Shown: positions 16,372 through 18,770 of the stretch, in pieces
How positions within the stretch are numbered: the first letter of the stretch is position 1
How the letters are laid out: each line of letters starts with the position of its first letter
Source of the DNA: Gammaproteobacteria bacterium
GTDB lineage: Bacteria > Pseudomonadota > Gammaproteobacteria > Natronospirales > REEB76
Reading direction: 5' to 3'
Assembly (NCBI GenBank): GCA_028864905.1
Contig: JAGWLP010000007.1
Coordinates: 1-32,351, forward strand
DNA length: 32,351 bases
Program-made: the position numbers and the translations under genes
Notes under the pieces: generated by a model
What the model was told of the DNA's origin: nothing
Databases searched by the model: none
What the model saw: only the letters and a program-made list of their open reading frames with translations

Positions 16372-17136
16372 TCAACGCTGCGGCGGAGAATGAGTGTTGG
16401 CGCCGGCCCCGTTGCCCGGCGGGGTGAACTTGACCGTCACGGTGACGTGCTGCTCGGCGGGATCCTTCTGCTCCTGCAGCGGCTCGAAATACCACTGACG
16501 TACGGCCGCGAGCGCGGTGGCGTCAAATATCCCCGGGGGCGTGGCGCTCACGACTTTGGGGGCCTGCACGCGGCCGCGCGCATCCACATCAAAGCTCAGC
16601 GTCACACTCCCGGCCAGATGCTGATCCAGAAGGTTGGCGGGATATACCGGATCCATGCGGAAAATCCGCCAATGACCAAAGTCCACAATCTCACAGCTGC
16701 TGTCGGGTTTGTACATCAGCGGCTGATTGCGGCAGAAAAATCGCGTGCGCGCCTGAGCGGCGTCCGGACCAAAGAACAGTGGATACATGAACTCGCCGGC
16801 CACCGCCTCAGTCCCGTGCATCGCCGGCTTGAAACGCCATTGGCCCAGTGCACTCAGCACCGCCGCAGTGTCCGCGGGTGACAGCAACGTGAAGATGGCA
16901 TGCGCATGCTGCACGCTTCCGTCTGGGGACACGATAAAGCGCGCCAAAACCTGCTGATCCGTGGGGTCAGCCTGCAGGGCTTGCATCTGCGTCGTCAACG
17001 GTTCGCTGGTGGGCGTGCCGATCAAAACGGGCGGAGGGGGCGATGCCGGCGGCGGTGTGGCTGGCTTGGGAGGTGGAGGCGTCGCACAGCCGGCAACCGC
17101 AAGCACCCCCAGCAGACATACCCAGACTTTAGACAT
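16372..17136 (-). CDS. Lipoprotein with proline-rich linker and TonB C-terminal domain
   Basis: Lipobox LAVAGC, then ATPPPPKPATPPPASPPPP, then TonB-C pattern YPANLLDQHLAGSVTLSFDVDARGRVQAPKVVSATPPGIFDATALAAVRQWYFEP. Confidence 0.82.
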   Translation of the reverse strand: MSKVWVCLLGVLAVAGCATPPPPKPATPPPASPPPPVLIGTPTSEPLTTQMQALQADPTDQQVLARFIVSPDGSVQHAHAIFTLLSPADTAAVLSALGQWRFKPAMHGTEAVAGEFMYPLFFGPDAAQARTRFFCRNQPLMYKPDSSCEIVDFGHWRIFRMDPVYPANLLDQHLAGSVTLSFDVDARGRVQAPKVVSATPPGIFDATALAAVRQWYFEPLQEQKDPAEQHVTVTVKFTPPGNGAGANTHSPPQR

Positions 17137-17253
17137 GGTTATCTGACCCGCAAATCGGCTGCAAATCGCAGAGAAGACTGGAGGCGTTACCTTAACACGC
17201 AGGCGGCACTCGCCCAAATGCGGCCCTTTCAGCTCGCGGCTTGTAGCCTGTAA

Positions 17254-17273
17254 TACTGTTTGCGTATACAGTA
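17254..17273. promoter_or_regulatory. LexA-binding site (SOS box)
   Basis: TACTG-TTTGCGTATA-CAGTA fits TACTG-N10-CAGTA with intact outer half-sites and correct spacing; ends 7 nt before the ATG at 17281. Confidence 0.85.
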
Positions 17274-17280
17274 ATCAGCC

Positions 17281-18360
17281 ATGCCGGTTTCACCTCGGAT
17301 TCCCATCAAAGGCCGTGGCGCGGTTTCCAATCCGGAAGGCCGGTTTGAAACCCGCCAACGTGAAAACTTCGACGACGGCTGGGATATTGAAGAGCCGCCG
17401 TTGCCTGCGCTGGAAACCGTGGTTACGCCCGAGCCGGCGCGCTCCGTCATCAGCCGCAACCAGTCGCCGGACATCCCCTTCACGCAATCCATCAATCCCT
17501 ATCGCGGCTGCGAACATGGATGCATCTACTGCTACGCCCGACCGAGCCATGCCTATCTGAATCTTTCACCCGGGCTGGATTTCGAAACCCGGCTGTTCTA
17601 CAAGCAGAACGCGGCGGAACTGTTGGAAAGCGAACTGCGCATGCCGGGCTATCGCCCCGCGCCCATCACGCTGGGCGCAAACACTGACCCCTACCAGCCC
17701 ATCGAGCGCAAGCTCAAAGTGACGCGCTCGATTCTGGAAGTACTGCAGCGCTTCCGCCATCCGGTGAGCATCATCACCAAGAGCACGCTGGTGGCACGCG
17801 ACCTCGACATACTCACCGATATGGCGCAACAGGATCTGGCCAACGTCATGGTGAGCATCACTACGCTCGACGAAAATCTGAAACGCAGTCTAGAACCGCG
17901 CGCAGCTGGTCCCTGGGCGCGCTTGCGCTGCGTACGCGCACTCGCGCTCGCAGGCGTGCCGGTGGGCGTGCTGAACGCGCCTATTATCCCGGTGGTGAAT
18001 GACCACGAAATCGAGCACATTCTGGAGTTGGCCGCGGAAGCCGGAGCCTGCTGCGCGGGTTATGTGCTCTTGCGGCTGCCGTATGAAGTGAAAGATTTGT
18101 TCCGGGAATGGCTGCATGCGCACCTGCCGGAGCGCGCCGCCCACGTCATGAGCATCATCCGCCAGATGCGCGGCGGCCGGGATTATCAGGCAGAATTCGG
18201 CACGCGCATGCGCGGCACCGGTGAATATGCCGAGCTTATCGCCCGGCGTTTTGCGCTGGCCCGCAAAAAATTCCGGCTGGAAAACCTGCGCCGCATGCGC
18301 CTGAGCTGTGCGCACTTTCGGCCCGCGCCGGGCGGCCCGCAACTGAACTTGGAACTTTAG
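17281..18360 (+). CDS. PA0069-family radical SAM protein
   Basis: SINPYRGCEHGCIYCYARPSHAYLNLSPGLDFETRLFYK: radical SAM CxxxCxxC cluster. N-terminal KGRGAVSNPEGRFE as in PA0069/spore photoproduct lyase-related proteins. Confidence 0.92.
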   Translation: MPVSPRIPIKGRGAVSNPEGRFETRQRENFDDGWDIEEPPLPALETVVTPEPARSVISRNQSPDIPFTQSINPYRGCEHGCIYCYARPSHAYLNLSPGLDFETRLFYKQNAAELLESELRMPGYRPAPITLGANTDPYQPIERKLKVTRSILEVLQRFRHPVSIITKSTLVARDLDILTDMAQQDLANVMVSITTLDENLKRSLEPRAAGPWARLRCVRALALAGVPVGVLNAPIIPVVNDHEIEHILELAAEAGACCAGYVLLRLPYEVKDLFREWLHAHLPERAAHVMSIIRQMRGGRDYQAEFGTRMRGTGEYAELIARRFALARKKFRLENLRRMRLSCAHFRPAPGGPQLNLEL

Positions 18361-18368
18361 ACCGAAAG

Positions 18369-18770
18369 CTAGTGCACGGCGTCGTGATGCTTGTTCCCGG
18401 TCTCGGCCTTGAGTGCCTCGAGCTCGCGCGCCACCATCTTGGAATCCAGCAGATTGATCTCCACCAGGCGCTTGAGGTGCGCGAAGCTTTCCGCATCGCG
18501 CGCCTCCCAAGTGCAGCCGATGTGACCCCCGTGTACATGCACCACCAGCGCATCCAGTTCCAGTTTGATGAGATCCGCGAGGCGCCACTCCACCCGCAAC
18601 CGGTCACCATCGGCAGGTTGCCAACCCGCCGGGCAGCGCGCCAGAAAGCCGCGGAAGGACATGTCCAGCATTTCGCACTCCTGCACCGTATCGCCCAGCC
18701 GGACGCGGATGACCGAGGAGAAACGGAAGCGCTGGAAACGGCGCCGCTCGTGGCCTGGCTTGACCGACAT
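18369..18770 (-). CDS. PilZ domain protein
   Basis: HERRRFQRFRFSSVIRVRL...EMLDMSFRGFLAR matches the RxxxR + DxSxxG c-di-GMP-binding pattern of PilZ. Confidence 0.8.
   Translation of the reverse strand: MSVKPGHERRRFQRFRFSSVIRVRLGDTVQECEMLDMSFRGFLARCPAGWQPADGDRLRVEWRLADLIKLELDALVVHVHGGHIGCTWEARDAESFAHLKRLVEINLLDSKMVARELEALKAETGNKHHDAVH

Follow-up and report, generated by a model that had tools for sequence, protein, structure and literature searches.

Background

Genes annotated as splB (COG1533) are controlled by LexA in alpha- and betaproteobacteria, and the same survey reported no such control among its gammaproteobacteria (Sanchez-Alberola et al., 2012; PMC3323433). SplB proteins of COG1533 also belong to the SOS networks of Bacteroidetes and are said to be SOS regulated in several species (PMC8565304). 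In Pseudomonas fluorescens, a gene annotated as SplB was up-regulated after exposure to epigallocatechin gallate in a study that contained no test of LexA (PMC5435343).

Here, we analysed a window of 32,351 bases, which is contig C21 of a gammaproteobacterial host assembly (G000; 1.49 Mb, 75% complete). It contains a radical SAM gene with a palindrome of the gammaproteobacterial SOS type at its promoter. The features of the locus are listed in Table 1.

Table 1. Features of the radical SAM locus, in window positions
Feature	Position	Strand	Details
TonB-C protein, divergent neighbour	16372..17136	-	PF03544; 117 nt from its start to the SOS box
-10 element TGTAAT	17249..17254	+	at the 5' edge of the SOS box; 5/6 match to TATAAT; from ortholog alignment
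SOS box (predicted LexA-binding site), palindromic TACTGTTTGCGTATACAGTA	17254..17273	.	0 mismatches; kept in place in orthologs
Predicted transcription start, inside the SOS box	17260..17262	+	6-8 nt 3' of the -10 element
PA0069-family radical SAM protein, 359 aa	17281..18360	+	NF033668, 507 bits; PF04055, 62 bits
Radical SAM cluster motif C77-x3-C81-x2-C84 (CEHGCIYC)	17509..17532	+	invariant in 64/64 orthologs
PilZ-domain protein, convergent neighbour	18369..18770	-	PF07238

Gene, neighbours and family identity

The assignment of the encoded protein to the PA0069 type, made in an earlier note from the letters of the DNA, holds: model NF033668 (rSAM_PA0069) matched it over positions 1-347 of 348 with 507.4 bits against a cut-off of 360. 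This model is named a hypothetical equivalog and has no reaction assigned. The next-best family, Rv2578c (NF038135), scored 226 bits, below its cut-off of 430. Radical_SAM was the only domain revealed by the Pfam scan. PA0069 itself reportedly belongs to the LexA regulon of P. aeruginosa; a full-text literature search for PA0069 together with LexA gave no match, and PA0069 was otherwise named only in passing.

Since the TonB-C gene diverges upstream and the PilZ gene converges downstream, the radical SAM gene is monocistronic. No sign was seen that the TonB-C neighbour shares the SOS box.

Several genus orthologs (L020, L021, L022 and L024-L026, from genomes G012, G014 and G017) carry an intein, running from CLDG to VVSHN, exactly before the third cysteine of CX3CX2C. 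The Rv2578c family is likewise known with an intein (NF038136). In G013 (L023), the reading frame stops within the intein, and no C-terminal half of the enzyme could be located.

The SOS box and the host LexA

The palindrome is the sole perfect TACTG-N10-CAGTA in the window, and positions 17256-17271 within it are the sole CTGT-N8-ACAG with 0 mismatches. The box overlaps the edge of the -10 element and ends 7 nt before the ATG (intervening bases ATCAGCC), so that both the near-consensus box and the spacing described in the earlier note were borne out. A search of the whole host assembly for TACTGTN8ACAGTA with at most one mismatch returned two sites, at the promoters of the radical SAM gene and of lexA; the reversed control pattern returned none. 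Further exact CTGT-N8-ACAG sites in G000 (contigs C36, C46 and C98), G009 (C101) and G010 (C125 and C156) had no clear gene start nearby and were set aside as chance matches.

The lexA gene of the host is present, split across the ends of contigs C71 and C43. Its product has the recognition helix FRSANGAEEHLRALARKGIIE, which is similar to that of Escherichia coli LexA, together with an Ala-Gly cleavage site and the Ser and Lys motifs. The lexA promoter contains TACTGTTGTTATATACAGTA, a predicted autoregulatory box, with 15 nt between its end and the start of lexA. The earlier note had allowed for a host LexA with a different consensus; the repressor found here has a helix of the E. coli type and a box of the same kind on its own promoter. 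Because of this helix, and because lexA and the radical SAM gene hold the only strict sites, the host LexA very probably reads the TACTG-type consensus that underlies the radical SAM box. The lexA genes of G004-G006 (L213, L214 and L216) are preceded by two adjoining SOS boxes 19 nt apart, the second of which has one mismatch in L213. The lexA gene of E. coli is also preceded by two adjacent SOS boxes.

The SOS regulon of the window's genus may be small. Unusually, recA in G010, G012-G014, G016 and G018 and recN in G000, G012-G016 and G018 had no box within one mismatch of the consensus close upstream; the exceptions among the recA and recN loci (L237-L256) were a one-mismatch box at recA of G017 and a weak box at recN of G010. 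In a genome-wide survey of strict sites, the radical SAM gene and lexA had the only ones in G000 and G018. These data suggest a narrow regulon with the radical SAM enzyme as a main member. A strong box (TACTGTATTTATATACAGTA) was detected in G014, 10 nt from a 328-aa open reading frame without a Pfam match (L278:1008-1991, minus strand), which may be a further LexA target.

Conservation of the box across orthologs

Alignment of the upstream regions of PA0069 orthologs, proposed in the earlier note as a check, showed the palindrome to be retained in most orthologs of the order. At the level of the order, 12 of 17 orthologs have a perfect CTGT-N8-ACAG, one has a one-mismatch box, and four have none; the boxes sit at the same promoter-overlapping place as in the window. 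Among 87 orthologs sampled across the class, 10 had a perfect box and 19 a box with at most one mismatch; the reversed control gave 0 and 5. The remaining 68 orthologs lack a box at this threshold. The box counts may be slightly low, as the scan was out of register for a few contig-limited loci (e.g. L043 and L063).

The motifs of different groups were compared in 80 named orthologs, with taxon groups taken from record names. The gammaproteobacterial box was perfect in 12 of 13 Pseudomonas orthologs (0.2 expected by chance). Alphaproteobacterial orthologs had the perfect GTTC-N7-GTTC in 25 of 29 cases (0.3 expected by chance) and the gammaproteobacterial box in none of the 29. The orthologs of these two groups thus carry their own group's LexA motif. 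TTAG-N6-TACTA, the LexA motif of Xanthomonadales, was present in only 1 of 12 orthologs from that group. Taken as comparative evidence, conservation of the box argues for its function.

Among gammaproteobacteria, the box on the radical SAM gene occurs in Pseudomonas, Marinobacterium, Microbulbifer and the window's order. Control by LexA is probably patchy within the family of enzymes, given the box-less majority in the class sample and the situation in G002 and G003, which belong to family f3 of this order. There, LexA is retained and the radical SAM gene has no box; the gene therefore left the f3 regulon or never joined it.

In the window's genus, the box was lost together with LexA. The only two box-less orthologs of this genus are those of G012 and G013, both of which lack an intact lexA: no LexA was found in G012 (94% complete), and lexA of G013 (99% complete) is a decayed remnant or pseudogene (L224:1501-1683). 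A scan for TACTGTN8ACAGTA that allowed one mismatch found no site in either of them. The evidence from G012 is cleaner, since the radical SAM gene of G013 is itself truncated. G017 keeps the box and LexA was not seen in it; at 76% completeness of this genome, the absence is uncertain. Complete relatives of G012 and G013 within the genus have lexA, and the SOS repressor was thus lost recently in these two.

Promoter and leader

The -10 element was assigned by comparison of orthologs, since the consensus scan for sigma-70 promoters called no site at the radical SAM promoter; the scan rule accepts only A as the second base of the -10 element, and the -35 element is weak here. Aligned orthologs of the genus have TATAAT, TACAAT, TGCAAT or AGTAAT at this place, ending two bases 5' of CTGT. 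The element is kept where the box is gone, as TATAAT in G012 and GATAAT in G013. A start at the usual distance from it would imply a leader some 19-21 nt long that lacks a Shine-Dalgarno sequence. The lack of such a sequence, noted earlier, agrees with an anti-Shine-Dalgarno duplex energy of +0.6 kcal/mol, compared with a median of -2.6 kcal/mol for random 20-mers. The ancestor of the order probably had a leader, because relatives of family f4 have a GGAGG-like Shine-Dalgarno sequence between box and ATG.

Fold and relation to spore photoproduct lyase

The AlphaFold2 model, built from 64 orthologs, had a mean pLDDT of 88.5. Its top Foldseek matches in the PDB were spore photoproduct lyases (SPL; 4FHG and 4FHC, E 6e-8, TM 0.53-0.57, 14% identity), so that the modelled protein would share the SPL fold. 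Sequence comparison gave a more distant picture. A single-sequence search of the PDB with the window protein found no relative, and a profile search gave partial matches only, such as SkfB and NifB, with no SPL among them. Profile comparison with gammaproteobacterial SPL homologs yielded a probability of 70% (E 4e-5). The SPL family profile PF20903 had no match in the host assembly at E 0.001.

The hydrogen-donor cysteine of SPL (C140 in the solved enzyme) is not conserved, as the three cluster cysteines C77, C81 and C84 are the only invariant ones in the 64 orthologs. The alignment around the donor is uncertain, and neither candidate position gives a conserved cysteine: 33 of 64 orthologs have Cys at position 126, where the window protein has Pro (P126), and the other position, N134/T135, lies in a GxNTD segment with Asn and Thr, not Cys. 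Most gammaproteobacterial SPL homologs have a Cys in a GYDCDS segment, and the solved SPL has ACTSD. Of the resemblance to SPL claimed earlier, the part that concerns the fold stands, while the sequence match in the PDB and the catalytic cysteine are missing. The sequences of the PA0069 family give no support to SPL chemistry as such.

Evaluation of alternative explanations

Comparative evidence strongly supports the proposal of SOS control, and the box is very likely a functional LexA operator through which LexA controls the PA0069-family gene. The palindrome could instead be a chance match or the site of another regulator that uses CTGT-N8-ACAG. Exact copies of this shorter pattern barely exceed the reversed control in the host (5 vs 4) and are fewer than the control in G018 (8 vs 19). 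Such an explanation is nevertheless highly improbable: the stricter pattern is restricted to the radical SAM gene and lexA in the host, the position of the box is identical in orthologs, alphaproteobacteria have their own LexA motif instead, and loss of the box accompanies loss of LexA. The details of transcription proposed earlier fared less well. That proposal combined a -10 element TATACA within the box (17265-17270) with a -35 element TTGTAG (17241-17246) and a possibly leaderless transcript. TATACA is indeed present and no Shine-Dalgarno sequence precedes the ATG, but these hexamers are not the conserved elements. Orthologs share TATAAT or TGTAAT farther upstream, at 17249-17254, where it persists after loss of the box and predicts a start some 20 nt before the ATG; the GGAGG of family f4 also points to an ancestral leader. 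We consider the leaderless model, disfavoured on these sequence comparisons, to be improbable.

If LexA regulates the gene, the enzyme may still act outside DNA repair, for example on a tRNA, a protein or a metabolite that the cell requires while in SOS arrest. The functions of the radical SAM superfamily are diverse, the sequence matches in the PDB were SkfB and NifB rather than SPL, the catalytic cysteine of SPL is missing, and neighbour clustering found no conserved repair-gene neighbour of the gammaproteobacterial orthologs. Against this, the closest folds in the PDB are those of SPL, about 12 of 29 alphaproteobacterial orthologs are directly followed on the same strand by the gene for RNase HII (e.g. 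L145, L164 and L182), a neighbour found in that group only, and the family is persistently placed in damage regulons. A role outside repair thus appears to be the weaker, if still appreciable, option, and a nucleic-acid repair substrate is somewhat favoured. A damage-specific role is indicated because the family is wired to each group's LexA motif and this wiring decays when LexA is lost. A further-reaching version holds that the SOS regulon of the genus has shrunk to little beyond lexA and the radical SAM gene, with recA and recN released, and that the SPL-like enzyme is the main SOS output and reverses an undescribed DNA lesion. We regard this version as unlikely; if true, such an enzyme rather than classical repair genes would dominate SOS output in the genus.

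Proposed mechanism and comparison with known systems

With LexA control as the preferred reading, LexA dimers on the box would cover the 3' edge of the -10 element and the transcription start in undamaged cells, keeping the monocistronic gene repressed. DNA damage would trigger RecA-stimulated self-cleavage of LexA and free the promoter, which would then yield an mRNA with a short leader lacking a Shine-Dalgarno sequence. The product would be a radical SAM enzyme of SPL-like fold; a nucleic-acid substrate is plausible, most likely a damaged or modified one. It would be new for a radical SAM lyase to act on a DNA lesion common in vegetative cells. The PA0069 family is a good target in this respect, with Pseudomonas as a tractable laboratory system.

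Compared with SPL (PF20903; PDB 4FHC), the window protein has in common the fold, the CX3CX2C motif, a Tyr adjoining the third cysteine and a similar length, but it is remote in sequence and has no conserved counterpart of Cys140. In the published splB systems, a LexA box likewise accompanies an SPL-like radical SAM gene, and class-specific LexA motifs occur there on homologous genes. Unlike in the survey of Sanchez-Alberola et al. (2012; PMC3323433), the box described here occurs in Gammaproteobacteria, although the splB of that paper may not be exactly the PA0069 family. SOS control of this radical SAM gene would therefore be largely known in kind and recurrent across Proteobacteria; what the comparative evidence appears to add is a well-supported gammaproteobacterial case.
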